DNA of 64,000 bases from Alistipes senegalensis. GTDB lineage: Bacteria > Bacteroidota > Bacteroidia > Bacteroidales > Rikenellaceae. The notes under the pieces are model-generated. The model was not told the origin of the DNA and made no database searches. It saw only the letters and a list, made by a program, of their open reading frames with translations. Shown here in pieces: positions 5,513 to 45,044 of the stretch; positions within the stretch are counted from its first letter, which is position 1, and each line of letters begins with the position of its first letter. The translations under genes were made by a program, and so were the position numbers. Location of the stretch: the NCBI GenBank assembly GCA_023664045.1, contig JAMPGH010000001.1:1650083-1714082 (forward strand), in the 5' to 3' direction.

Positions 5513-6754
5513 TCAGAGCAGCCCGACGATCCGGTCCAGTCCGATGCCGTGCGAGCCTTTCAGCAGCACCAGCGCATCGGCGATCGGGTGCGCCTGCAGC
5601 TCTGCGGCCAGCTCTTCGCGGGTCGGGTAGCAACTCACGCGCGACGAGGGCTTCGCGGCGGCATGCGCCCGGGAGAATTCCGCGCCCACCAGATATAGTT
5701 CCGCCGCCGGATCCTGCATCGCCAGTTCGAGGATCGCCGCATGTTCCGCGGCCGACCATTCGCCCAGTTCGAGCATGTCGCCCAAGATCAGGACGCGGCG
5801 CGTGCGTTCTCCGAGCGGCTCGGCCAGAAATCCCTCGACGGCGGCCCGCATGCTGGTGGGGTTGGCGTTGTAGCAGTCCGCGATCGCTTCGTTGCGGGCG
5901 GTGCGTATGCGTTGCGAGCGGTTGTTGTCGGGAATGTAGCTCGCTATGGCGTGGCGGATGCGTTCTTCGTCGATGTCGAAGTAGCGGCCGATCGCTACGG
6001 CCGCCGCGATGTTGAAGCGGTTGTAGTCGCCCGCCAAGCGGCTTGCGACTCCTTCTGCCAGCCGCTCGGAGTAGTATTCGGCCGCCAGTCCCGGTCGCTC
6101 GGAGATCATCTCCGTCAGCACGGGGTCTTCTTCGCGGACGAAGGCCCGGCCGCCGTTCTCCGCCAGAAAGTCGTAGAGTTCGCCCTTGCCGCGGCGGATG
6201 CCTTCGGGACCGCCGAATCCTTCGAGATGCGAGCGCCCGATGTTGGTCAGGATGCCGTAGTTGGGTTCGGCGATCGCTGCCAGCCGGGCGATCTCGCCGC
6301 AGGCGCTGGCTCCCGTCTCCACGACGCCGAACTGCACTTCGCGCGTCATCGACAGCAGTGTCAGCGGCACGCCGATGTGGTTGTTCAGGTTGCCGTGCGT
6401 GGCATAGACTTCGAAGCGCTCGGAGAGCACGCGGGCTACCAGTTCTTTGGTCGTGGTCTTGCCGTTGCTGCCCGCAATGGCGAGGATCGGAATGCCCAGC
6501 GTCCGGCGATGTTCGCGCGCCAGCTCCTGCAGGGCTTGCAGCGTGTCGTCTGCCACGATGAAACGGTCGTCCGTCGCGGCCGCCGGATCGTCGACCACGG
6601 CATAGGCCGCGCCGGCCCGCAGTGCTTCGGCAGCGAACCGGTTGCCGTCGAACGTAGCTCCCCGCAGGGCGAAGAAAATCGCCCCGGGTTCGATGCGCCG
6701 CGTATCGGTCGAGATGCGGGGATGACGGCAGAAAAGATCGTAGAGTGCGCTCAC
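5513..6754 (-). CDS. murF: UDP-N-acetylmuramoyl-tripeptide--D-Ala-D-Ala ligase
   Basis: Cytosolic Mur ligase that adds D-Ala-D-Ala to the UDP-MurNAc-tripeptide, the last soluble step of the peptidoglycan precursor pathway. At 413 residues it is slightly short for the family. The N-terminal substrate domain carries [16 protein letters not shown], the central ATPase has the P-loop [10 protein letters not shown] (95-104), NLNNHIGVP and [12 protein letters not shown] follow, and the C-terminal domain has [10 protein letters not shown] and [10 protein letters not shown]. Its start lies 4 bp downstream of the stop of the GDP-mannose pyrophosphorylase gene, so the two probably form one transcript. 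It is separated from other mur genes. Confidence 0.96.
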
Positions 6755-11074: not shown

Positions 11075-11119
11075 CCCGTGCTGTTCTGCAGCCGCAGACT
11101 GCCCTCAAAACGATTTTTT

Positions 11120-11806
11120 ATGTTTAAAAAGACCGTCTGGACCATCGCGATCCTCACGATTCTGACTTTCTTCTACGGCCTCAATGCGCGTTTCGCCGCT
11201 CCGGCGTCGGCTGCCGGCGACGGCATCGGCAGCGGGTACTCGTTGCTCCGGGAGGGCGACTACGCGATCTCGGCCTACGACGAACTGATGCGCAACATCT
11301 GCGAGGAGGAGGGGCACGACTGGCGCTTGCTCTCGGCCATCGCCTACCACGAGTCGCGGTTCCGTTCCGACCGGATGTCGCGGCGCGGTGCCCGGGGGAT
11401 CATGCAGATCATGCCGTCGGTGGGGCGGCAGTTCGGGGTGCCCGTCGAGCTGATCGCCGATCCCGAGAACAACATCCGATTGGCGAACCAGCTCCTGTCG
11501 AGCATCGAGAAGACCCTCGCCCTGCCGGCTTCTACTCCCGCGAAGGACCGCATGAGCATCTTGCTGGCTTCCTACAACAGCGGTCTGGGCCATGTCCGCG
11601 ATGCAAGGCGGCTGGCCCGCTTCTACGGAGACAATCCCGATTCATGGAACGTCATCGTCCGTTATTTGAGCTTGAAGGCGCTGCCCGAGTATTATGAGAA
11701 CGAGCTCGTCCAGTGCGGACGGTTCACCGGCAGCGGGGAGACGCAGGCTTATGTGAACGACGTCCTCGAACATTATTACGAGTATTGCCGCCGGACCGGG
11801 CGTTAG
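11120..11806 (+). CDS. Lytic transglycosylase (SLT/MltF-type)
   Basis: Periplasmic muramidase-like enzyme that cleaves peptidoglycan with 1,6-anhydro product formation. The 228 residues start at MFKKTVW (ATG 11120) with an N-terminal hydrophobic segment (about 5-20) and then the SLT fold: catalytic E78 in YHESRF, GIMQIMP (93-99) and LLASYNSGLGH. The upstream in-frame ATG at 11078 would put an odd 14-residue extension before the signal and is rejected. The gene follows the porin gene after 45 bp and ends at a strong terminator at 11826-11860. Probably envelope remodelling; the specific complex is unknown. Confidence 0.9.
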   Translation: MFKKTVWTIAILTILTFFYGLNARFAAPASAAGDGIGSGYSLLREGDYAISAYDELMRNICEEEGHDWRLLSAIAYHESRFRSDRMSRRGARGIMQIMPSVGRQFGVPVELIADPENNIRLANQLLSSIEKTLALPASTPAKDRMSILLASYNSGLGHVRDARRLARFYGDNPDSWNVIVRYLSLKALPEYYENELVQCGRFTGSGETQAYVNDVLEHYYEYCRRTGR

Positions 11807-11886: not shown

Positions 11887-12397
11887 AAAAGCAGCCGCAG
11901 ATGCTGGACGCAGCGCACAGTGAAGCCGTAGGCATGTTCGAGGCTGTTCATCGGGTTCACGTTCGTAGAGTAGAAATTCAGGCTACTCGCATTGGCATTG
12001 CCTGCAGCGTAAGGCGAGGATGACCAGCAGAGGCCCTGCGCGCCGACACCCGTCAGGGCTCCCGTCGGGAAGTTGCGGTAGCCCGAAGCGACCGATCGGA
12101 GCAATCGCTGGAATGAATGCCGGAAAGGAAACCTTTCTTAATGAATAATTAATTATCAAGCGGATTCGTGGACTCGTAAAAATTATTCACTATTCATTAT
12201 TAACTATTAATTAAGGTTGCTTTCCGGCAGGCTGGGATGAATACCCCGCTTGGCAGGGCGGGGACAGATGAGGCCGAACAAAAATATCCGTTTCCATCTC
12301 CCCCTAAAACCCCGTTCTTAGCGGGGGGATTGCTGAATCTGCAGCCTCGCTGACGGGAACCTTGATTCCCGCCACTCCGGGCCGTAGCTGCTTTCGT
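11887..12397 (-). repeat. Dispersed DGR-like element A (orphan variable/template-repeat segment)
   Basis: Read on the minus strand, the element runs from 12397 to 11887. In order it has AAGCAGCT..GG.CCGGAGTGGCGG, GATTCAGCAATC, a CCCCGCTAAGAACGGGG hairpin with TTTT, CAGCCTGCCGGAAAG, an AT-rich insertion (12121-12227), CATTCCAGCGATTGCT, and a 180-bp segment (12083-11904). The last encodes a C-type-lectin-like C-terminus: GYRNFPTGAL, GLCWSSSP, NFYSTNVNP, then GFTVRCVQ. Element B at 42105-42536 has the same order. No reverse transcriptase or complete host gene accompanies it. The open frame of 126 codons here is not conserved upstream of the 180-bp part, so I do not call a gene. Confidence 0.7.
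12125..12222. repeat. AT-rich inverted repeat inserted in element A
   Basis: The arms CCTTTCTTAATGAATAATTA (about 12132-12151) and TTCATTATTAACTATTAATTAAGG (about 12193-12216) are imperfectly complementary. The whole is bracketed by CCGGAAAG and CTTTCCGG. Element B lacks this block at the same place, so it looks inserted. Confidence 0.5.
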
Positions 12398-12417: not shown

Positions 12418-14055
12418 TTAGAGTTCCGCGTCGTCGTAGATCAGTTCGAAGTCGTCCAGCCACAGGCAGCTTTGCGTCGAACCGATGAAGTAGTCGCCCC
12501 AGCGCGAGGCCGAGCAGACGATAATCAGGTGCGTCGGCACGGTCGCCTTGTCGCGCCAGTCGATGGGGATCGTGAACTGCGTCCATTCGTCCGCGCTCTT
12601 GTCCAGAATCAGTTCGCCGTAGCCGCTCACGCGGGGATTGTTTTTGTCGAAGAGCTTCTGGTTGCTTTTCTTCGTGCGGATCTGTACCGGCGACTCAGCC
12701 GTGCCCTCGTCTTCTTGGGGTGTCCAGATGCCCAGGGCGATGTAGATCGAACCCTCGTCCATGTCGTCGTTGGTCAGCGTGAGACCCGGCGGCATCGTAG
12801 GTTTCTTCAGGTCGATGTCGATCTGACCCTGCGTATATTTCATCCAGCCGCGCAGCGCTATGGGATGCGTCGCGAAGGGGCGGCCGAAGTTGAGGATGCC
12901 GTCGGTGCCGTCGGTCTCGAAGTAGGTGCCCACGAAGATGTTGCCGGCCGCGAATTTGCCGATTCCCATCAGCGACGCGAATTTCGAGGTCAGCATCGCC
13001 GAGACGGTGCCTGCGGAGCCGGGCCGGATGTCGGCGCTGCTTTCGCAGATCGTCTCGCTGACGGTCGCCGAACCTTTGTTGCCGCTGTCCCAGAAGGCTT
13101 GTTCTTCCGAAAGATAGGGATAGACGACCTTGCCCGGTTTGCTCCACTCCTCGAATCCGCCGTTGGGCAGCGGCAGGGGCGATTCGGTGGTGAAAGTCTC
13201 GACGGTCGAAAGGTCGTCGTTCGAGTAGGCCACCGCTTCGTAACGCGTCTGGGGCAGCAGTCCCTTGATCTGCGTCGAGAACGAGCCGCCGTCGAAGGCG
13301 ATCTCTTCCTGCGGCACTTCGATCCACTCCTCCGTCCCTTCCGCACGGTAGCGGAACCCGAGCGTCGTGCCGCTCAGTCCGTCGGCATAGAGCCATGCCG
13401 AGTGGGTCCACGGCGCTACTTGCGTGAACGAAACCTTGATGTCGGTATATTCGACCGTTAGGTACCATTTCTCCGTGCGGCCGTGGTAGGTTACGTCCAC
13501 TCGGCGCGAGGTCGTGAAGTCGGTCAGCAGGTAAAGATTCGTCTCGTTGAAATCCTCCACGTCGGTGCACGACATGCGGGTGATTCCCTGCGGCCCCAGT
13601 TTCAGGCCCGTGATCTCCACGTGGGAGAGGTCTTCGAAACCCACGTAGGCTTTGGCCGTGCGGGTCGCCGCGTCCCATACCGTCGAACCGATCTGCTCGG
13701 CTACGGTGAAAATGCGGGGAATGGTCTGCTGCGCCTCGATCGTCCAGGGGTAGTCCTGATAGATCGAGAGCGTAACGTCGAGCGGCGACCGCAGGTCGTG
13801 TTCGCCCACGATCTCTTTCGATGCCTCGGCCCGTTCGGTGATCGTGCAGGCCGTGATCTTCACGGCTTGAATGTCGGTCGTCTCTTCGAGCGGCAGCGTT
13901 ACCTTGCGGGCCGTCGCATCGATTGCCGGTTCGCCCGAAAGTCCTTCGGCTTCGATGCTCTCCACCGCGCACTCCACCACCGGATAGGGGATGTCGTTCT
14001 CGATGCAGGCCGTCGACGCCGATGCCAGCAGTATGTAGAGTCCCAGTCGTTTCAT
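12418..14055 (-). CDS. PCMD-domain lipoprotein
   Basis: A 545-residue lipoprotein: signal LLASASTAC with lipobox Cys at about residue 17, then Ig-like beta segments. The C-terminal half resembles the PCMD (putative carbohydrate metabolism, PF13201) domain, with NGGFEEWSKPG, FWDSGNKGS, the conserved GIGKFAAGNIFVG, FGRPF and a final LWLDDFELIY. The same C-terminal words occur in the gene ending at 15963. Start at ATG 14055 (MKRLGLY); upstream in-frame codons belong to the neighbour's antisense reading. It is the last gene of a seven-gene minus-strand locus. Probably surface-exposed and perhaps carbohydrate-binding; no catalytic residues are recognisable. Confidence 0.8.
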   Translation of the reverse strand: MKRLGLYILLASASTACIENDIPYPVVECAVESIEAEGLSGEPAIDATARKVTLPLEETTDIQAVKITACTITERAEASKEIVGEHDLRSPLDVTLSIYQDYPWTIEAQQTIPRIFTVAEQIGSTVWDAATRTAKAYVGFEDLSHVEITGLKLGPQGITRMSCTDVEDFNETNLYLLTDFTTSRRVDVTYHGRTEKWYLTVEYTDIKVSFTQVAPWTHSAWLYADGLSGTTLGFRYRAEGTEEWIEVPQEEIAFDGGSFSTQIKGLLPQTRYEAVAYSNDDLSTVETFTTESPLPLPNGGFEEWSKPGKVVYPYLSEEQAFWDSGNKGSATVSETICESSADIRPGSAGTVSAMLTSKFASLMGIGKFAAGNIFVGTYFETDGTDGILNFGRPFATHPIALRGWMKYTQGQIDIDLKKPTMPPGLTLTNDDMDEGSIYIALGIWTPQEDEGTAESPVQIRTKKSNQKLFDKNNPRVSGYGELILDKSADEWTQFTIPIDWRDKATVPTHLIIVCSASRWGDYFIGSTQSCLWLDDFELIYDDAEL

Positions 14056-14117
14056 GATCGTTCCTGAAGTATAACGCAGTGCGGTTCGTTTTATTTCGGG
14101 TTCTCCGTCATGGATCC

Positions 14118-15071
14118 TCACGTCCGGTTTCCCTTTTTCTTGTTCCACAGATGCACCGTCATGCCGATGCGGATGTCGGCAAGGTTGAGTTTGAAGTTCA
14201 GCTTCGAGTAGTGGCGTTCCCCGATTTTGTTGCCTTCCGCGTCGAATTGCCGGACATTCGTATATCGGAAGCCGCCCAGCCCGAACGAGAGGGTCGCGCA
14301 GACGTTGGGAAAGGCGTAGACCGCGATTCCGGGGTTCAGCCCGGCCTTGACGGTCGTGGTGTTCGAGGTAGTCTGTTTGTAGCTCTCGCCGGATTTGTAG
14401 GCGAAGGTGTTTTCGCCGGTCATGAATGAAAGTTCGATCTCTCCGAAGACGCCGAAGCGCCCTTTTTCGTCCAAAGCCACGTAGGAGCGGTGGAAAAGTC
14501 CGACCGAGAAGCGGTCGCTCGTCAGGTCGAGCCACGGAATCTCGATGTCGATGTCGTTCTGTTCGCCGAGGTTGATGCCCAGCGAGTTGAGTTTTCCCGA
14601 GATGTGGGTGTAGCCGAAGCGCACGCCGATGCACCGGTTGTCGCGGTAGAAGTAGCCGACGAAGGGATTGACCGTCGTGATGTTGCCGCTCAGGTCGATG
14701 CCTTCGAACACGGGGAACATGTCGGCGTCGTCGGTCGAGAGCGTACCGTAGGAGATGGTCAGGCCGCACATGGTTTCGCCCTTGAAGACGAAGCGGTTCT
14801 TGTTGATTTCGCGGTCGATGCGGCGGTTCGTGGGCAGAAAGCGTTTCTTGAGCCGCATGCCGCTGGGGCCGATCGTTGCCGATTCGGCTTCGACGTTCGT
14901 CGCGGCTTTCCGATCGGGTTCTTCCGATACCGGGGTTTCGGTTGCAGGGGCGGGAAGGGGCTCCTGTTGTCCCGATGCCGTCGGCCGCACCTCTTCGGCC
15001 CGGATGCGGAGCACAGGTATCAGCAGCAGCATGCCTGCAAGCCAGAGAGTATGTAGCGTTCGTGGTTTCAT
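14118..15071 (-). CDS. Outer-membrane beta-barrel protein, PCMD-locus paralogue 1
   Basis: 317 residues with a signal peptide (about 1-25, RIRA/EE). A Pro/Glu-rich linker runs to about residue 70, and about 240 residues of alternating beta-strand pattern end VHLWNKKKGNRT. The central part (FVFKGETMCGLTISYG, FEGIDLSGNITTVNPFVGYF, GVRFGYTHISGKLNSLGINLG) aligns with the next gene upstream (WIFGGSASYSTHV, IEGIDSDGYTFKITPMIGYA, GMRLIYSRTLLKIDGGELNLG), so the two are paralogues. Likely an anchor or export pore for the neighbouring lipoproteins; this is inference from context only. Confidence 0.7.
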   Translation of the reverse strand: MKPRTLHTLWLAGMLLLIPVLRIRAEEVRPTASGQQEPLPAPATETPVSEEPDRKAATNVEAESATIGPSGMRLKKRFLPTNRRIDREINKNRFVFKGETMCGLTISYGTLSTDDADMFPVFEGIDLSGNITTVNPFVGYFYRDNRCIGVRFGYTHISGKLNSLGINLGEQNDIDIEIPWLDLTSDRFSVGLFHRSYVALDEKGRFGVFGEIELSFMTGENTFAYKSGESYKQTTSNTTTVKAGLNPGIAVYAFPNVCATLSFGLGGFRYTNVRQFDAEGNKIGERHYSKLNFKLNLADIRIGMTVHLWNKKKGNRT

Positions 15072-15084
15072 CGTGCGCAGCGGG

Positions 15085-15927
15085 TCAGAGGTGGAATGAA
15101 ACGCCCAGTCCGATGGAGAGGGGGTTGATGCGGAAGTTCATGTTGCTGGAGCGGATGTCGGCCGTGCTGACCTGATTCTTCACCTGATGCGAGTGGGTGT
15201 AGCTGATGCCCATCACGCCGATGTTGAGTTCGATGGCCATCGTATTGGTGGCGAATGCGATCAGGCCGGGCGATACGCCTAAGGCGATCGACGTGCCGGT
15301 CTCGTAGGTTCCCCGAATGGGGGTGTCGGCGGCGAATTTGGTCTGGTGGCCGCCCAGCCGGAGCGACATTTCGTTGAAGAGAGCGAAGCGTTTGTTGCGC
15401 CCCAGCGGAATATACTGGCGCCAGAATACGGCGGCCGAGTAGCTGTGTTTGAGCGAATAGTAGTAGTCGGCGGCGATGTGGGTTCCCGACTCTTCGTCGC
15501 CGAGGTTCAGTTCTCCGCCGTCGATCTTGAGCAGCGTGCGCGAGTAGATCAGGCGCATGCCCACGGCCGAGTTGTCGCGCAGGGCGTATCCGATCATCGG
15601 CGTGATCTTGAACGTGTAGCCGTCGCTGTCGATGCCTTCGATGATGAAGAACGTGTAGTCGTCGTTCACATGGGTGGAGTAGGAGGCCGATCCGCCGAAT
15701 ATCCATTGGCCTTCCGGTACGAAGACATGCTTTATGTCGACCAGTCCGCGTTGCCGGCGCAGTTCGTTGATCGTCGGCGCCGACGTGCTGTCCGCTTCCG
15801 CCCGAAGCTCGGGGGCTGCGGCTCGCGTTGCCGCCGGTTGCGGCTCGTCGCCGCTTTTCCGGGCGGAAAAAGCCGGAAAGGCAATCAGCAGCGCAGCGGC
15901 TAACAGAACATGTCGGATCGGTCCCAT
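15085..15927 (-). CDS. Outer-membrane beta-barrel protein, PCMD-locus paralogue 2
   Basis: 280 residues from ATG 15927 (MGPIRHVLLAAALLIAFPAFSA, a signal peptide). A low-complexity segment reaches about residue 60 and a beta-barrel-type pattern ends GLGVSFHL, a typical aromatic/leucine outer-membrane C-terminus. Its stop lies 13 bp before the start of paralogue 1. Compared with that paralogue it has a shorter linker and no basic tail. The upstream ATG at 16149 lies inside the preceding lipoprotein gene and is rejected. Function unknown. Confidence 0.7.
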   Translation of the reverse strand: MGPIRHVLLAAALLIAFPAFSARKSGDEPQPAATRAAAPELRAEADSTSAPTINELRRQRGLVDIKHVFVPEGQWIFGGSASYSTHVNDDYTFFIIEGIDSDGYTFKITPMIGYALRDNSAVGMRLIYSRTLLKIDGGELNLGDEESGTHIAADYYYSLKHSYSAAVFWRQYIPLGRNKRFALFNEMSLRLGGHQTKFAADTPIRGTYETGTSIALGVSPGLIAFATNTMAIELNIGVMGISYTHSHQVKNQVSTADIRSSNMNFRINPLSIGLGVSFHL

Positions 15928-15962
15928 GCGTCGGGTTTGTTCGGGTGTAGGGTGTGTAAGGA

Positions 15963-18152
15963 TCAGTATACCAGTTCCATGTCGTCGAGATACATGAAGC
16001 TCGACGTCGATCCGGTAAAGTAGTCGCCGTATTTGCTGGCCGAGGCGGTCAGCATCAGGTAGGTCGGCACTTCTCCTTCGTATTCTTCGTTGTAGTGCAG
16101 CTCGAGCGTGATTTCGGTCCACTCCGGCATCGACTGCGAGTTGGTCCACTCCGCCCAGGCGACGATATGTCCCTCCGTGCCGTCGTTGGTGCTGTTGATG
16201 CCGTTCTGCTTGGTGCAGTAGCTCATCGTCTTCGAGTTTTTGCTGAAGTCCAGCAGGGTATTCCCGTTCCCCGATTTGGTCTTCACGACGTGCGGTCCGC
16301 CCATCTTGCAGAGGCAGATGTAAACCTGACTCACGTCCGAATCTCCGGACTGGATATGCGACGGGGTATCGTTGCCGCGTTCATTGATCGTTCCGATGTT
16401 GCCTTTGTACCAGAACGAAAGCGCTTTGGGACGATAGGTGAAGTCGAACGGTTTGCCGAATCCGATCACGCCGTCCATACCGTCGGTCCCGAGGTATTTG
16501 CCCAGAAAGATGTTGCCTGCGGCGAATTTGCCGATGCCTAAGAGCGAGGCTTTCTGCGACGTAAGTTTCGCCGAACAGCTGCCCGAGGATCCCGGACGCG
16601 TGTCGTTTTCTTTGGTCGTTACGTTGATGTTCGCTTTCGACGATCCGTGGTTGCCCGTGTCCCACCACTGGTCGTTGCGGTCGGTCTCCGACTGGTAGGG
16701 GAGCAACGGCTTGCTTCCCGACCACACCTCGAATCCCGCGTTGTAGATTTGCGGTCCGGCCGGGTAGGAGACTTGGTGTGCAGCTCCGGCCGTCGTGCCG
16801 TCGAGCAGCAGGCGGTATTCGTAATCGGCGCCCAACGCCGCAAGATCCGGCTTCGTGGAGTAGATGTCGTCGGACTCGTGCGTCAGCTCCGCAACGCTCC
16901 ATTCGCTTTCGCCTTGTTTGCGGTACTCCATTTTCACCTCCGTTGCCGGAGAGAACACGCAGGCGCGCAGGCTCCGGTCGTCGAACCACGGATCGGTCGG
17001 GGGAAGCAACGCCCCCTGCGTGCGGACGGTCAGCGTCTTCGTGCTTTCGCCGCTGTCTTGATCGATGGCCGTGATGGTCAGCACTTGATTTCCCCCGCCG
17101 AAGCGGCCGAAGAATTTCCCGCCCAGCGCCACGGTCATGTTCGTGGCATCGGCCACGTTCACGGCGATGCCGTCGGCATTCTCTTCGGCAGTCGTTGCCG
17201 CCACTTCGCAGCGATCGCCTGCTTCCGTTTCGATGCGTACGGCCTGCATGTCGGCGATCGACGAGATCGCCAGCACCAGCGGCTCGCCCGAGAAGCGTTG
17301 CAGCTCGCTCAGGTCGAAGCCCTCGCCCGTGATCTGCGGATTGGGAATGAACGTAACCGGATCGTCCACTTCGTCGGGATCCTCTTTCAGCGTGAGGGTG
17401 AAGTCGAGGGCGCCGCCCAGATCTTTCGAGTATTTGAATTTCAGTTCGTAGCACACGCCCGGCTCGGTCGAAATCTCCTGCGCTCCGGTCTTGTCCACCG
17501 TCAGGGCTTCGCCGTTCTTCTCGCCTTCGCCGTAGAATCGCCAGCAGAGCGTCGCGGTCGCTTCGGGCAGGATGAAGTAGCCCGCAGCGCTCGTCTCGTA
17601 TACCAGATAGGGTACGCGCTTCTCGTCTATGTTCTCCTGCGTGTATCGTTCGTCGAATGCCACGGTCGTCCCGAACGTCTTTTTGAACGTGGCGGGAACG
17701 CTCTTGTCGTAAACCACCTTCACTACGGTGTTCACCATGTCGCATACCACCTCCACGGTCGTCGTCTTGCCTTCGGCGATGCGGAACTCTTTTTCACCCC
17801 GGTAGGAGGGTCTGAAACCCGTTTCGGCGAAGTCGCCCGCCTCCACGGCGATCGAGTAGTCGCCTTCCAGCAGCCACAGCGACGAGGGCATCTCCGTCCG
17901 CGAGTTGTAGCGGCGGATGAGTTCTTTGCCGACTTCGCCCTCTTGCTCCGTAAGTTTGTAGATGCGGATGACGCAGTGCGTCCACGGATATTGCGTGTCG
18001 TCGTATTCGGCGCGGCTCTGCGGTACGGCGATGGCGAACGATACGGCGCCTTCGCCCGCTTGTTCCGGGTTCTCCGCCGCCTCTTTCGTGCAGGCACCGC
18101 CGGCCAGCAGCATCCCCAGCAGCCATACGATATGGATCGCGAATTTCTTCAT
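15963..18152 (-). CDS. DUF4493 + PCMD domain lipoprotein
   Basis: A 729-residue lipoprotein with lipobox LAGGAC (Cys about 21). The N-terminal half resembles DUF4493, a fimbrillin-like region: WTHCVIRIYKL, LLEGDYSIAVEAGD, VCDMVNTVVKVVYD. The C-terminal half resembles PCMD: NAGFEVWSGSKP, WWDTGNHGSSKANI, GIGKFAAGNIFLG, SFMYLDDMELVY. It sits between a DUF4493-only gene and the two barrels, and it combines the two domain types that neighbours carry singly. The family assignment is from pattern recall; the role may be adhesion, glycan binding or an appendage subunit. Confidence 0.8.
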   Translation of the reverse strand: MKKFAIHIVWLLGMLLAGGACTKEAAENPEQAGEGAVSFAIAVPQSRAEYDDTQYPWTHCVIRIYKLTEQEGEVGKELIRRYNSRTEMPSSLWLLEGDYSIAVEAGDFAETGFRPSYRGEKEFRIAEGKTTTVEVVCDMVNTVVKVVYDKSVPATFKKTFGTTVAFDERYTQENIDEKRVPYLVYETSAAGYFILPEATATLCWRFYGEGEKNGEALTVDKTGAQEISTEPGVCYELKFKYSKDLGGALDFTLTLKEDPDEVDDPVTFIPNPQITGEGFDLSELQRFSGEPLVLAISSIADMQAVRIETEAGDRCEVAATTAEENADGIAVNVADATNMTVALGGKFFGRFGGGNQVLTITAIDQDSGESTKTLTVRTQGALLPPTDPWFDDRSLRACVFSPATEVKMEYRKQGESEWSVAELTHESDDIYSTKPDLAALGADYEYRLLLDGTTAGAAHQVSYPAGPQIYNAGFEVWSGSKPLLPYQSETDRNDQWWDTGNHGSSKANINVTTKENDTRPGSSGSCSAKLTSQKASLLGIGKFAAGNIFLGKYLGTDGMDGVIGFGKPFDFTYRPKALSFWYKGNIGTINERGNDTPSHIQSGDSDVSQVYICLCKMGGPHVVKTKSGNGNTLLDFSKNSKTMSYCTKQNGINSTNDGTEGHIVAWAEWTNSQSMPEWTEITLELHYNEEYEGEVPTYLMLTASASKYGDYFTGSTSSFMYLDDMELVY

Positions 18153-30966: not shown

Positions 30967-33900
30967 GTGTCTCCCCATGAACAGTTGGCGCAGCTGGCCG
31001 CCGGGTCGGAGCGCCTCGGAGAGCTGTGCCGGGCATATGCCGCCAGGCAAGCGACCGTCCACCTCGAAGAGTTGGTCGGCGGGGCGCTTTCGTTCTATGC
31101 CGCCGCGGCGATCGCCCGCATGGGAGGCGTGCACCTCTTCGTCGCCGAGGACCGCGATGCCGCGGCCTATCTGTTGAACGACTTCTATAACTTGTTGGAC
31201 GAACGGCAGGTCTGCTTTTTCCCCTCTTCTTGGAAGCGCTCCGCCGCCTACGGCGCCGAGGATGCGCAGGGCGTGGTGCAGCGTACCGCCACCTTGAACG
31301 CTCTGCGGAACTTCGGCGGTACGGGTTATCTGGTCGTCTGCACCTATCCCGAGGCGTTGGCCGAGCGGGTCGCCGATGCCGAGGCGTTGCGGCAGGGATC
31401 GATTCAGGTGCGGGTCGGCGACCGGATCTCGATCGATGTGCTCGTGCAGGCGTTGACCGACGCCTCTTTCACGCGCGTCGACTTCGTCTACGAGCCCGGG
31501 CAGTACTCCGTGAGGGGCGGCATCGTCGACGTCTTCTCTTTCTCCGAAAGCAAGCCCTACCGCATCGACTTGTTCGGCGACGAGGTCGATTCGATCCGAC
31601 GGTTCGAGATTTCGAGCCAGCTCTCGTCCGAAAAACTCTCCGAGATCGCCGTCATTCCCGACATGAACGCCGCTGCTTCCGCGTCGCGCGTCTCGTTGGC
31701 GCAGTTCGCCGGCGCGGAGGCCGCATGCTGGTTCTACGATCCCGACTTCGTGCTGCGCAAGATCAACGACGTGAGACGCAGGACCCTCGGCGATCTGGAG
31801 CGGCCCGAGACGATCGATGCGTTGATGACCAGCCGCAACGGCTTGCTCGCCGATCTGGCCCCGAACCGCATCTTCACGCTCCGCGACAACCTGCCCGAGC
31901 GTCCCGCCACGGCGGCTGTCCGCTTCGCGACCGCTCCGCAGCCCAAGTTCAACAAGAACTTCGAGATGCTGGCCGACGACATGATCCGCAATGCGTTGCG
32001 GGGTTACGAAACGTTCATTCTCTCCGAAAACAAGGTGCAGGTCGAGCGCCTCGAAAACATCTTCCATCGGATCGGCCGCGGGCAGGCCGTCGTCCGGGCG
32101 CTCGGGGTTACGTTGCACGAGGGTTTCGTCGACCATGACCTGAAAATATGCCTCTATACCGACCACCAGATCTTCGACCGCTACCAGCGCTACCGCATCA
32201 ACGGCGAGATCCGGCGCGACGAGCAGATGACCGTCGCCGAATTGAACCAGCTGCGGCCGGGCGACTACGTCGTGCATATCGACCACGGCGTCGGGCGCTT
32301 CGACGGTTTGGTGAAGATCTCCGAGAACGGCAAGTCGCACGAGGCGATCAAGCTCGTCTACAAGGACGGCGACGTACTCTTCGTCAACGTCCATTCGCTC
32401 CACCGCATTTCGCGTTACAAGGCCGGCGACGGCGAGCCGCCCAAGATCTACAAGCTCGGCAACGGGGCTTGGCAGAAGCTCAAGAACGCCACCAAAAAGG
32501 CCGTCAAGGACATCTCGCGCGAGCTCATCGCCCTCTACGCCCGGCGCAAGGCTTCGAAGGGCTTCGCCTTTTCGCCCGACAGCTACCTGCAGCACGAGTT
32601 AGAGGCTTCGTTCCGCTGGGAGGATACGCCCGACCAGCAGGCGGCCGTCGCCGCCGTCAAGAAGGATATGGAGTCCGACCAGCCGATGGACCGGCTCGTC
32701 TGCGGCGACGTAGGTTTCGGTAAGACCGAGGTCGCCATCCGCGCCGCATTCAAGGCTGCGACCGACGGCAAGCAGGTCGCCGTGCTGGTGCCCACCACGA
32801 TTCTGGCTCTGCAGCACTACCGCTCTTTCTCCGAGCGCCTGCGCGGCTTTCCGGTGAAGATCGAGTATCTGAACCGCACCAAGTCGGCCCGCGAGGTGGC
32901 GCAGATCCGCGAGGAGCTGGCGTCGGGCAAGATCGACATCCTTATCGGCACGCACAAGATGCTGGGCAAGCAGATCCTCTTCCGCGATCTGGGACTGCTG
33001 ATTATCGACGAGGAGCAGAAGTTCGGTGTCGCCGCCAAAGAGAAACTTACTCAGATGAGCGTGTCGGTCGATACGCTCACCCTCACCGCTACGCCCATTC
33101 CGCGGACGCTGCAGTTTTCGCTCATGGGGTCGCGCGACTTGTCGGTCATCTCTACGCCGCCGCCCAACCGGCAGCCCATCCTCACCGAGTCGCACACCTT
33201 CTCGGAGGAGATCGTCCGCGATGCCGTCGAGGCCGAGCTCGCCCGCGGCGGTCAGGTCTATTTCGTCCACAACCGCGTCGAGGACCTGCTTTCGATTGAG
33301 GGCATGATCGCCCGCCTCTGCCCGAAGGCCCGCGTCGGCGTCGGACACGGCAAGATGCCCCCCGAGCAGCTCGAAAAGCTCGTCATGGACTTCATCTACG
33401 GGGAGTTCGACGTGTTGCTCTCGACCACCATCGTCGAGAACGGCATCGACATCCCCAACGCCAATACGATCATCATCGACAACGCCCAGAATTTCGGTCT
33501 GAGCGATCTGCACCAGTTGCGCGGCCGCGTGGGGCGCTCCGACCGCAAGGCCTATTGCTACCTCCTCTCGCCGCCCGACGAGCTCTTGTCGTCCGATGCG
33601 CGGCGGCGCCTGCGGGCCATCGAGGAGTTCTCCGACCTCGGCTCGGGCTTCAACATCGCCATGCAGGACCTCGACATCCGCGGCGCCGGCAATCTGTTGG
33701 GCGCCGAGCAGAGCGGCTTCATCGCCGACATCGGATTCGAAACCTACCAGAAGATCATGCAGGAGGCCATCGCCGAGTTGCGGGCCGAGGGACTGCAGGT
33801 CGCCGGGCTCTCGGAGGCCGAATCCGACGTCGTGGAGCGGATGCGCTTCATCGACGATGCACATATCGACATCGAAGTCGAGGCTTCTCTGCCCGACTCT

Positions 33901-39969: not shown

Positions 39970-42003
39970 ATGGCAAGTTTAAACACCTTACGTACCAAGT
40001 TCGGCATCGTGCTTTCGATCATCATCGCACTGGCCCTTCTGGCATTCATCCTTTCGTTGAAGACCGAGATGGGTTTTTCGGGCAACGATCCGAAGATCGG
40101 CGAGATCGACGGCACGAAGATCCGTTATTCGGAGTACTACGAGCTTTACGAGCAGGTCAAGGCCCAGAGCGGCGCTCAGGAGAGCGACGAGCAGCAGGCC
40201 GCCTTGCTCGCCAATACGACGTGGCAGGCCCTCGTGGCGCAGCACGTGCTGACACCCGGTTTCGAGAAGGCCGGTCTGCGCGTCTCCGAGCAGGAGCGTC
40301 AGGCCATGATCGCCGGCCGGCAGTATTCGCCGGTTTTCTATCAGGCGTTCGCCGATCCCCGCACCGGTTTCTATAACGTGGAGGTCGTCGGGCGTTTCCT
40401 CTCCGAGGCCGAGACGAATCCGCAGGCGATGACTACATGGAAGCAGCTCAACGAGCAGGCCCGTCTCGAGCGCGCCAGCCAGAAGTTCGGCGCGCTGGTT
40501 CGCGGCGGCGCCTATGTCAATTCGCTCGAAATCGCGCAGGGCGTCGATGCCGCCAACGACCGCTTCTCCGGCAAGTGGGTCGGCAAGCGTTATTCGTCGG
40601 TGCCCGATTCGCTCGTCGCCGTCTCGAACAGCGACATCAAGGCTTATTACAAGCAGCATAAGAGCGCATTCCGGCAGACTCCTTCGCGGTCGTTGTCGTA
40701 CGTCGTCTTCGAGGTCGAGCCTACGGACGACGACTTGCTGGCTCTGGAGCACAGCGTGCAGGAGGTCGGCGCGAAGTTCGTCGCCGCCGAGGATGCGAAA
40801 GCGTTCGTGCGGGCCGATCGTCGCGGACATATCGCCGAGAACTACGTCTCGGCGGCTCAGCTCTCCGACGAGGAGGCCGCCGCGCTGATGGCCGGCAAAA
40901 CCTACGGCCCCGTCCTGAAGAACAACGAGTGGACGATGGCCCGGGTTCTCGATTCGAAAACCGCAGCCGATTCGCTCGGCATCCGTCATATCGTGTTGCC
41001 TTATACCGAGGAGAAGCTGGCCGACAGCTTGTTGACCGTGATCCGTCGCGGTGCCGACTTCGGCGAGCTGGCCGCCCGCTATTCGGTTTACGACCAGACG
41101 GCCGCCAACGGCGGCGAGGTCGGCGTCCTGCCGTTCTCGGCGTTCACCGGCGAGTTCGTCGACGCATTGGCCGGTGCCAAGCAGGGCGACGTGGTGAAGG
41201 TCGCTTCGGGCGATGCCATCCAGTTGCTGCAGATCTATCGCGCCGGTCGTCCGACCCGCCACGTGCGGCTCGCTTCGATCACCTATCCCGTCGAGGCTTC
41301 GTCGGCTACGATCCGCGAGGCGCATAATCAGGCCCTTTCGTTTACGGTTAACGCCAAAGGTTCGATCGAGAACTTCAACGAGGCCGCTTCGGCTGCTGCG
41401 CTCACTCCGCGTGTCGCCGTGCTCGGTCAGGGCGAGCGGACGATCCGCGGGCTGGAGGATTCGCGCGACGTGGCCCGCTGGGCCTACGGCGCTGAGAAGG
41501 GCGACCTCTCGGAGATCTTCAAGGTCGGCAAGGATTACGTCGTCGCCGTTTTGACGGGCATCGACAACTCGGAGTTCACGCCCGTCGAGAAAGTTTCCGC
41601 ACAGATTCGGGCACAGTTGCTCCGCGACAAGAAGTACGACTACATCCTCGGCGAGCTTTCGGGTTCGACGCTCGACGAGCAGGCCGCCAGCCTCGGTTCG
41701 CAGCCCGCCGAGTTCGAGAACGTCGTCTACAATTCCTATTACCTCGACGGCGCAGGCATGGAGCCCCGTCTGATCGGCGCCATCGCTTCGACGACCCAGA
41801 CCGGTGCCGTTTCGGCTCCCGTCAAGGGCTTCAGCGGCCTCTACGTCTTCCAGGTCGACGACATCCGGCACGGCGAGGCTCAAACTCCCGAGGCCGAGCA
41901 GGCTCGGGCGCAGGCTACGGTCGAGAGCCGGGTTTCGCAGCTCGTCATGCCCGCCATGCAGGAGCTGGCCAAGATCAAGGATTTGCGCGGCCGTTATTTT
42001 TAG
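39970..42003 (+). CDS. ppiD: Periplasmic peptidyl-prolyl isomerase / chaperone PpiD
   Basis: 677 residues, anchored by one N-terminal transmembrane helix (about 11-30, IVLSIIIALALLAFILSL). A SurA-like N-terminal chaperone region has NDPKIGEIDGTKIRYSEYYELY. Parvulin-type PPIase segments follow: IRHIVLPYTEEKLADSLLTVIRRGADFGELAARYSVYDQTAANGGEVGVLPF, then a second half-domain. It helps outer-membrane proteins fold after export. Follows envelope genes and ends at a terminator at 42025-42056. Confidence 0.92.
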   Translation: MASLNTLRTKFGIVLSIIIALALLAFILSLKTEMGFSGNDPKIGEIDGTKIRYSEYYELYEQVKAQSGAQESDEQQAALLANTTWQALVAQHVLTPGFEKAGLRVSEQERQAMIAGRQYSPVFYQAFADPRTGFYNVEVVGRFLSEAETNPQAMTTWKQLNEQARLERASQKFGALVRGGAYVNSLEIAQGVDAANDRFSGKWVGKRYSSVPDSLVAVSNSDIKAYYKQHKSAFRQTPSRSLSYVVFEVEPTDDDLLALEHSVQEVGAKFVAAEDAKAFVRADRRGHIAENYVSAAQLSDEEAAALMAGKTYGPVLKNNEWTMARVLDSKTAADSLGIRHIVLPYTEEKLADSLLTVIRRGADFGELAARYSVYDQTAANGGEVGVLPFSAFTGEFVDALAGAKQGDVVKVASGDAIQLLQIYRAGRPTRHVRLASITYPVEASSATIREAHNQALSFTVNAKGSIENFNEAASAAALTPRVAVLGQGERTIRGLEDSRDVARWAYGAEKGDLSEIFKVGKDYVVAVLTGIDNSEFTPVEKVSAQIRAQLLRDKKYDYILGELSGSTLDEQAASLGSQPAEFENVVYNSYYLDGAGMEPRLIGAIASTTQTGAVSAPVKGFSGLYVFQVDDIRHGEAQTPEAEQARAQATVESRVSQLVMPAMQELAKIKDLRGRYF

Positions 42004-42056: not shown

Positions 42057-42104
42057 GCGGAATCCCGATACTCGGTGCAGATTCTGCAGGTTCCCAAGAT
42101 AAAA

Positions 42105-42536
42105 AGCAGCTTCGACCCGGAGTGGCGGCGGCCTGCCGCTTCCGCCAGCGCGGTCCGTAGATTCAGCAATCTCCCGCCTCGCTAAGAGCGGGGTTTTATG
42201 GGGAAATGGAACCGGTTCTTTCTATCGAATCCGATCTCCCCTTATCCCCTCCCGGGCGGGTTTATATCCCAGCCTGCCGGAAAGCGCATTCTTTTCGGTT
42301 TTCATTCCAGCGATTGCTGCGATTTGTCAGCATCGGGCTTCCGCACCTTCCCGACGGGAGCCCTGACGAATGTCGGCGCACAAGGTCTCTGCTGGTCTTC
42401 TTCGGCTTCCGCTGCCGGCAGTACCACCGCAAGCGACCTGAATTTCAACTCGACGAACGTGAACCCGTCAAACGGCGACAACCGTGCCAACGGCTTCACT
42501 GTGCGCTGCGTCCAGCATCTGCGAGCTGCTTTTTTA
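42105..42536 (+). repeat. Dispersed DGR-like element B (template-like, A-rich copy)
   Basis: Same order as element A: AAGCAGCTTCGACCCGGAGT, GATTCAGCAATC, a hairpin with GCTAAGAGCGGGGTTTT, CAGCCTGCCGGAAAG, CATTCCAGCGATTGCT, then a 180-bp segment (42336-42515). That segment encodes GFRTFPTGAL, GLCWSSSA, LNFNSTNVNPSNGDNRANGF and TVRCVQ, followed by an invariant tail to CTGCTTTTTT. Many of its variable codons are AAC or ACC, as in a template repeat. A 114-codon ORF (42198-42542) spans it, but a 1-nt indel against element A just before the lectin part shows the upstream frame is not conserved. Confidence 0.7.
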
Positions 42537-42905: not shown

Positions 42906-45044
42906 CTACTCTTCCAGCAGGATCTCGAGGATCTTGATGGCGGCCGTAGCGATCGGCGTGCCGGGTCCGAAGATGGCGGCGGCACCGTCGCGGTAAAGTT
43001 CGTCGTAATCTTGCGCCGGGATCACACCGCCCACGATGACGATGATGTCTTCGCGGCCCAGCTTCTTCAGCTCGGCGATGATCTGCGGCACCAGCGTCAG
43101 ATGGCCGGCCGCCAGCGACGAGACGCCCACTACGTGTACGTCGTTCTCGACGGCCTGCCGTGCAGCCTCTTCCGGCGTCTGGAACAGCGGACCCATGTCG
43201 ACGTCGAATCCGATGTCGGCATAACCCGTGGCTACTACTTTGGCGCCGCGGTCGTGGCCGTCCTGACCCAACTTGGCGATCATCACGCGGGGCTGACGGC
43301 CCTCTTTCTTCGCAAACTCGGCGCACAGTTCCTTCGCGCGCTCGAACGACTGATCTTTCTTCACTTCCGAACTGTAAACTCCCGATATCGAACGAATCAC
43401 GGCCTTGTATCGGCCTACGACCACTTCGCAGGCGTCGGAGATTTCGCCCAGCGAGGCGCGTACTTTCGCCGCTTCGACGGCCAGCTCCAGCAGGTTGCCC
43501 TGCTTGGTCTTCACGCACTCGGTGATCGCCGCCAGCGCTTTCTTCACGGCCGCTTCGTCGCGGTTGGCGCGCAGTTCCTGCAGACGCTTCACCTGACTCT
43601 CGCGCACCGCCGTGTTGTCCACAGCCAGAATGTCGATCGGCGCCTCCTTTTCGAGTCGGTATTCGTTCACGCCGATGATCTTCTGCTCGCCCGAGTCGAT
43701 GCGGGCCTGCGTGCGGGCCGACGACTCCTCGATGCGCATCTTAGGAATGCCGGTCTCGATGGCTTTGGCCATGCCGCCCAGCTTCTCGATCTCCTGAATG
43801 TGTCCCCAGGCCTTGCGGGCGATCTCCTCGGTCAGCGTCTCCACGTAGTAGGAGCCTGCCCACGGGTCGACCTCGCGGCATACGGAGGTCTCTTCCTGAA
43901 TGTAGATCTGCGTGTTGCGGGCGATGCGGGCCGAGAAGTCGGTCGGCAGGGCGATCGCCTCGTCCAGCGCGTTGGTGTGCAGCGACTGCGTGTGTCCCAG
44001 CGCCGCACCCATCGCTTCGATCGCCGTGCGGGCTACGTTGTTGAAGGGATCCTGCTCCGTCAGAGACCAGCCCGAGGTCTGCGAGTGGGTGCGCAGGGCC
44101 AGCGACTTGGGATTCTTGGGGTCGAACTGCTTGACGATCTTGGCCCACAGCATGCGGGCGGCGCGCATCTTGGCGATCTCCATGAAGTGGTTCATGCCGA
44201 TGGCCCAGAAGAACGAGAGGCGCGGTGCGAAGGCGTCGATCGACATGCCGGCGTTCACGCCCGCACGAAGATACTCCAGACCGTCGGCCAGCGTGTAGGC
44301 CAGCTCGATGTCGGCCGTCGCTCCGGCTTCCTGCATGTGGTAGCCCGAGATCGAGATCGAGTTGAATTTGGGCATGTTCTTCGAGGTGTATTCGAAGATG
44401 TCGGCGATGATGCGCATCGAGAACTCGGGAGGATAAATATAGGTGTTGCGCACCATGAACTCCTTGAGGATGTCGTTCTGGATCGTTCCCGACAGCTGGT
44501 CGAGGGTGCAGCCCTGCTCCAGACCCGTTACGATGTAGAACGCCAGAATCGGCAGCACGGCGCCGTTCATGGTCATCGACACCGACATGCGGTCCAGCGG
44601 AATGCCGTTGAAGAGCACCTTCATGTCTTCCACCGAGCAGATCGATACGCCGGCTTTGCCCACGTCGCCCACCACGCGCGGGTGGTCGGCGTCGTAGCCG
44701 CGGTGCGTCGCAAGGTCGAAGGCCACCGACAGACCTTTCTGTCCGGCGGCCAGATTGCGGCGGTAGAAGGCGTTCGACTCCTCAGCGGTCGAGAATCCGG
44801 CGTATTGGCGGATGGTCCACGGACGCATCACGTACATCGTCGAGTAGGGACCGCGCAGGAACGGGGCGATGCCCGCCGCGTAGCCGAGGTGTTCCATGCC
44901 TTCGAGGTCCTGAGCCGTGTAGGCACCCTTGACCGGAATGCGCTCCGAGGTGAGCCACGGCTCCGCCTCGCCGCATCCTTTCGCGGCGCAGCAGTTCTTC
45001 TGTGCGTCCGCGTCGTATTTCAGTTCCGAAAATTTAGCTCTCAT
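42906..45044 (-). CDS. mutB: Methylmalonyl-CoA mutase, large (catalytic) subunit
   Basis: 712 residues. Adenosylcobalamin enzyme interconverting succinyl-CoA and (R)-methylmalonyl-CoA, the key step of succinate-to-propionate fermentation in gut Bacteroidota. A TIM-barrel substrate domain carries [32 protein letters not shown] and [10 protein letters not shown]. The C-terminal B12 domain has D595-G-H597-x2-G600 (lower-axial His), SSLAAGH and VIVGGVIP. Transcribed after mutA with a 2-bp gap and closed by a strong terminator. All catalytic landmarks are present. Confidence 0.97.

Follow-up and report, generated by a model that had tools for sequence, protein, structure and literature searches.

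Two probable orphan template units of a multi-template diversity-generating retroelement in Alistipes

Background

Diversity-generating retroelements (DGRs) are usually pictured with one template and one or few targets. The canonical element (BPP-1 type and its bacterial relatives) consists of a reverse transcriptase (RT), Avd, one template repeat (TR) and one or several variable repeats (VRs). A plan with many silent donors and one expressed acceptor is known from silent-cassette antigenic variation, for example of Neisseria pilin. Excerpts of one paper describe DGRs with several VRs or few TRs, including examples with 2 or 6 TRs (PMC6642488), and excerpts of another describe targets in Thiohalocapsa PB-PSB1 that are changed by an RT and TR located elsewhere, as judged by matching at all non-A sites (PMC10907252). 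According to parts of a review, type V tip pilins are diversified by DGRs in Bacteroides (PMC12632263). No description of a multi-template DGR library was met in the literature searched, which covered listings and paper excerpts. The two units described here, A and B, lie in a 64-kb stretch of Alistipes DNA (the window), and are probably orphan template genes. They would belong to a DGR with many templates, of a kind that rewrites a pilus tip in relatives, in some cases in trans.

Results and Discussion

Units A and B of the window

The first-pass annotation had singled out two 180-bp segments on opposite strands (the TRs of Table 1) as variable segments of a DGR. Recounting bore out their gap-free alignment with 32 differences (BLASTN E 9.7e-41), 20 of them at codon positions 1 or 2, where 17 of the 20 have A in one copy; the flanks that it had named are constant, and the window contains no reverse transcriptase, the genome's sole RVT_1 match falling outside. 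The resemblance between A and B extends upstream past the 180 bp, and both upstream stretches match the Rfam RT-7 RNA, missing its gathering score of 116.8 and clearly related by E-value. Upstream of unit A is a PCMD lipoprotein gene (12418-14769, minus strand) and convergent with it is a lytic transglycosylase gene (11078-11806, plus strand); unit B lies between a SurA-like PPIase gene that has its own hairpin (39970-42003, plus strand) and a methylmalonyl-CoA mutase gene (42906-45044, minus strand). The role of variable segments was not upheld: A and B are intergenic, each with an RT-7 leader and with a tail that covaries with it, and the VR of relatives is the C-terminus of a pilus-tip gene. 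Judged by sequence, A and B are best annotated as intergenic orphan template units that correspond to the template in relatives, not as variable segments. A weak Rfam Ysr141 match in the window (32639-32892, minus strand, 28.8 bits against 196) was taken as chance.

Table 1. Features of template units A and B in the window
Feature	Coordinates	Strand	Basis
Template unit A, helix P1 5′ strand through T-run	11887..12394	-	sequence, plan common to 47 copies, P1 covariation, neighbours
RT-7 RNA leader, unit A (Rfam RF03028)	12094..12381	-	76.8 bits, E 6.3e-16
Template repeat (TR), unit A: 60 stop-free codons, end VRCVQ, 34 A	11904..12083	-	
P1 5′ strand AAAGCAGC, unit A	12387..12394	-	sequence, covariation
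P1 3′ strand GCTGCTTT, unit A, continuous with T-run	11888..11895	-	sequence, covariation
Template unit B, helix P1 5′ strand through T-run	42101..42535	+	sequence, site comparison, fold z -3.84, neighbours
RT-7 RNA leader, unit B (Rfam RF03028)	42116..42324	+	61.9 bits, E 6.8e-12
Template repeat (TR), unit B: 60 stop-free codons, end VRCVQ, 34 A	42336..42515	+	
P1 5′ strand AAAGCAGC, unit B	42103..42110	+	sequence, covariation, fold
P1 3′ strand GCTGCTTT, unit B, continuous with T-run	42525..42532	+	sequence, covariation, fold

Template library and DGR locus

The assembly of the window's genome, an Alistipes by the relatives of its RT, comprises 1.97 Mb in five contigs and is 86% complete. 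The search that had been proposed, for further copies of the segments and a reverse transcriptase beside them, succeeded: the DNA of unit A matches 41 places in the genome, the peptide of unit B finds 47 (E up to 0.01) with stops in 0 of 47, and the only reverse transcriptase found is adjoined by a tandem array of A-rich copies. The array consists of 11 units (C1:483.6-488.4 kb) between the reverse transcriptase and an Avd-like gene, and the remaining 36 of the 47 units are scattered. All 47 follow a common plan, in which a leader ending in variants of CCAGCGATTGCT precedes a short variable stretch and a segment of about 60 codons ending VRCVQ (length 180 in 37 units, 177 in seven and 183 in three); CATCT follows and then, in nearly all, a T-rich run.

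The reverse transcriptase scores above the cut-off of RVT_1 and matches the PHROG reverse transcriptase family (E 5e-91), both being general RT models; visual reading found the motifs IGNLTSQ and YVDD, which we take to be DGR-type. The Avd-like protein matches the PHROG family 'Avd protein of DGR' (E 2e-20), and also NCBIfam DivGenRetAVD (51 bits) and Pfam bAvd (35.8 bits), both under the curated cut-offs. Membership of a DGR, as first proposed, agrees with this RT, the Avd-like gene and the A-rich copies elsewhere in the genome, and with the encoded segment, which has a weak match to the end of the FISUMP domain, where relatives have the stretch rewritten by DGRs. Repeated searches of the 86% complete assembly found no target gene, the best candidate being a partial fimbrillin-type protein (33-36%); the window's genome thus has the RT, the Avd-like gene and the templates, and the relatives have a DGR by the features tested. 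The use of A and B as templates is accordingly presumptive.

Directly before the Avd-like gene is an orf conserved in two genomes (L032:15048-16235, minus strand, 395 aa; L126:11625-12317, minus strand, 230 aa) that has no family match; it looks MutS-N-like, a name that had no library or PDB support. A cobalamin riboswitch (L032:3048-3258, plus strand, 93.9 bits) is located upstream of the DGR region of the window's genome.

RNA anatomy and context of the units

The 5′ end of the leader can pair with the tail that follows the TR (helix P1), and the leader sequence G[C/T]AGAT can form a second helix with ATCT[G/A]C of the tail. Because the units share descent, the following figures are not strict probabilities: P1 scores 23.7 with each unit's own ends against 19.8 (sd 0.53) with ends reassigned, 0 of 1000 reassignments reaching that value (from the 45 of 47 units that could be used); the 11 array units by themselves score 25.7 against 20.5 (0 of 2000 as high); and the second helix, in the 127 of 196 units from all genomes that were usable, has the pairs C-G 73, T-A 33, T-G 21 and C-A 0. 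The predicted fold of unit B contains P1, the second helix and a helix AGCAAUC/GAUUGCU that closes the leader. Together, P1 and the second helix would hold the TR between leader and tail.

Just upstream of P1, 10 of 45 units, all of them scattered, have a box TAnnTTTG (expected about 0.005 per unit), presumably the Bacteroidota -7 element; it is absent upstream of A and B. The orf upstream of the 36 scattered units is on the same strand in 21 and on the opposite strand in nine, and six have none. When the upstream orf is well scored, 18 of 21 scattered units, A and B included, follow a same-strand gene, the score line for this figure having been chosen after the scores were seen. A gene running through the units was considered and rejected: none of the scattered units, to which the orf scoring was applied, is inside a well-scored orf, and the spacing before the TR varies.

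Survey of related genomes

The sample consisted of 151 genomes of the genus. RT-7 was found in 14 of the 151 (above the cut-off in four) and a related RT in 26 (E up to 1e-20). Seven genomes (G000, G007, G009, G012, G060, G106 and G115) have RTs at least 82% like that of the window's genome and from 12 to at least 42 peptide matches each; a longer query gave 88 matches in G060, a few of which are other proteins. Another seven, with RTs 48-54% like that of the window's genome, have 2 to 25 peptide matches. The peptide match by itself occurs in 53 of 151 genomes and, being often single and weak, is not a count of 53 template libraries. A separate expansion, independent of the first, may have occurred in G079 (1.3 Mb), which has an RT 54% like that of the window's genome, a single RT-7 match and 25 peptide matches (83 candidates). 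The target in relatives is the C-terminus of a DUF4906 or fimbrillin-type protein, 773 aa long in A. muris, whose gene belongs to a fimbrillin operon; by sequence profile, the A. muris target matches the end of the FISUMP domain weakly (20.4 bits against 41.65).

Templates and their variable repeats

In three genomes with a single RT-7 (G002, G033 and G076), RT-7 precedes the TR and the RT, and a VR ends a nearby gene; all VR mismatches are at template A (18/18, 21/21 and 16/16, respectively). This layout and the A-only mismatches identify the leader plus segment as a DGR template. Two loci of G085, with three and five TRs, have VRs with 19/19 and 9/9 mismatches at template A, only one TR matching the VR in length at the first locus.

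In the four expanded genomes with an assigned VR, this repeat matches a unit of the array or a scattered one, and nearly all of the mismatches are at template A. The G106 VR, cut to 171 nt by a contig end, has 12 of 12 mismatches at A of an array TR. The G007 VR has 22 of 23 at A of a scattered unit on contig C25, other TRs of the same length showing at least 50 differences, and the A. muris (G115) VR has 17 of 21 at A of a scattered unit on C5, the four non-A mismatches all lying in the first 36 nt and the next-best TR having 37 mismatches. In G060, the array TRs of the same length all have at least 54 mismatches to the VR; therefore, a scattered donor was predicted ahead of the search, and it was located on C7 with 6 of 7 mismatches at template A. 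The single non-A mismatch of both G007 and G060 is the last base of the segment. In G007, G060 and A. muris the best donors are on other contigs, and the donor units of A. muris and G007 have a conserved gene in common on the 3′ side, so they probably derive from one placement. Binomial values for A-located mismatches range from 4e-14 to 3e-4; foreign TR sets leave 12-62 non-A mismatches, and own sets 0-5 (the five in G012).

Altogether, some VR was available from six expanded relatives: the donor could be assigned in four (an array unit in one, scattered units in three), G009 was unassigned and G012 was dropped. The partial G009 VR (109 nt, from an assembly 82% complete) fits none of the 36 unit copies compared, some of them duplicates, with at least 33 mismatches. 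The G012 VR had been considered a mosaic of two array TRs, an interpretation dropped on finding that a 3.55-kb array copy (99.8%) runs into the VR; the near-identical copies (L132:5403-8951 and 13060-16608) reflect either a joining artefact of the assembly or genuine recombination of TR with VR. Treating the A. muris VR as a two-part mosaic reduces its non-A mismatches from four to one, a hint only, as foreign sets gain likewise. The assignments compare TRs of the same length as the VR, which sets aside one TR in A. muris, two in G007, two of three at the first G085 locus and several in G060; they leave out G100 (partial), L091 (Ns), G079, G098 and a third G076 match. The L091 VR (6007-6186), in the target of an Alistipes MAG, has Ns at variable codons, the pattern expected from within-sample variation.

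Alternative explanations

It is very improbable that A and B are orphan VRs, that is, remnants or non-coding targets mutated in place by a DGR. The count behind this idea is sound, as 24 of the 32 A-B differences at all positions involve A, and AAY codons are fewer in scattered units (4.7, with seven in A and eight in B) than in array units (9.1). As proof of A-directed mutagenesis the count fails, most of it being divergence between two templates: none of the 689 unit pairs is more extreme than A-B, in which A takes part in 75% of the differences against a mean of 47%, and the proposed check for enrichment of changes at A, when polarised with a third unit, found only 6 of 12 changes starting from A in A, 7 of 17 in B, and 86 of 317 over 21 units. 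Taken alone, the bias is therefore weak evidence. Neither unit is inside a target gene, and polarised changes mostly do not start from A; both bear the template leader and tail instead of the tail that follows the VR in the targets of A. muris, G007 and G060; two other units have an identical TR with all 36 A intact; and scattered units are donors in relatives.

A more substantial alternative, unlikely in our estimation, is that spread of the template has left mostly dead scattered copies and that only the array and a few survivors do the work. The deficit of AAY codons suggests that some scattered units may be decaying, the promoter-like box is absent in 24 of 34 usable scattered units, and no target was detected in the window's own assembly. 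Against this, all segment lengths are multiples of three, 47 of 47 segments are stop-free, diversity at 16 conserved residues is 0.045, 0.039 and 0.22 at codon positions 1, 2 and 3, and a no-selection simulation gave about 10^-6.3 over 31 units. TR segments are thus constrained at the protein level, which for scattered, intergenic TRs is expected if they get written into a gene; moreover, the donor is a scattered unit in three of the four expanded genomes with an assignable VR. Least credible is a pure DNA cassette archive, in which the VR changes by ordinary gene conversion between units and target and reverse transcription plays no part. In its favour, the two units with identical TRs, both of the window's own genome (G000:C1:526127-526306 and 996980-997159), share 197 bp (the TR block and its edges) beneath differing leaders, which by sequence appears to be module exchange without changes at A; and the site of unit B, empty in G007 and A. 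muris, is occupied in G009 by a unit with a different TR (the stretch inspected in G012, G060 and G106 showed no unit). Placements may therefore persist while their contents are swapped. Plain conversion does not account for VR-donor mismatches that are nearly all at donor A, nor for RT and Avd-like genes at the array. A phage origin of the units was also considered and rejected: of the 40 viral loci retrieved with a 16-base leader motif, none had a protein match resembling the template.

Proposed mechanism

Under the preferred interpretation of A and B as template genes, each unit would give an RNA whose RT-7 leader pairs with the tail right after the TR. In this paired form the RNA would present the TR to RT and Avd, whose genes are elsewhere on the chromosome. 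Copying of the TR, error-prone at A, would then yield a cDNA that takes the place of the VR at the end of the pilus-tip gene. The library (11 tandem units at the DGR locus and 36 scattered units) would let the tip be rewritten from many backbones. Comparison of the units shows the leader-tail pairing and the protein-level constraint on TRs; we infer that A and B are transcribed and used, that their RNA binds RT and Avd, and that the benefit is a choice among templates. A bolder and tentative extension, which may well prove too broad, is a genome-wide archive in which a single pilus tip is supplied in trans by tens of template RNAs, many of them placed behind different genes or under promoters of their own. 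If so, the expressed neighbourhood could bias which tip backbone gets written, and cassette-type antigenic variation would be joined with A-directed hypermutation.

Comparison with known systems

The kind of element is known; its layout is new, in that a single target is served by tens of templates, some of them in trans. As in a canonical DGR, there are an RT, an Avd-like gene, a template right before the RT, mismatches at template A and a C-terminal target that may be lectin-like; unlike a canonical DGR, there are 11 tandem and 36 scattered TRs in the window's genome, and scattered TRs of relatives donate in trans. Reversal of the template to target ratio changes the reachable sequence space, adding other backbones, other A positions and codon-sized indels, and makes this a natural setting in which to study recognition of template RNA in trans by RT and Avd. 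Detection methods confined to the vicinity of the RT can overlook the true template: A. muris, G007 and G060 each have their best donor on a different contig. The Rfam RT-7 RNA (RF03028) is the leader of each unit; the TR and the back-pairing tail lie outside the part matched by the model, under whose cut-off A and B fall. Silent cassettes of the Neisseria type share the plan of many donors and one acceptor, whereas mismatches at donor A point here to error-prone reverse transcription. In the excerpts available, the DGRs of PMC6642488 mostly have many VRs per TR, whereas the relatives examined here have many TRs and one target. The remote targets of Thiohalocapsa PB-PSB1, as excerpted (PMC10907252), use the DGR of another locus, whereas the templates here stand alone, away from any RT. 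The Bacteroides tip pilins resemble the target in the fimbrillin operon described here, and the excerpts of the review (PMC12632263) mention no template library.
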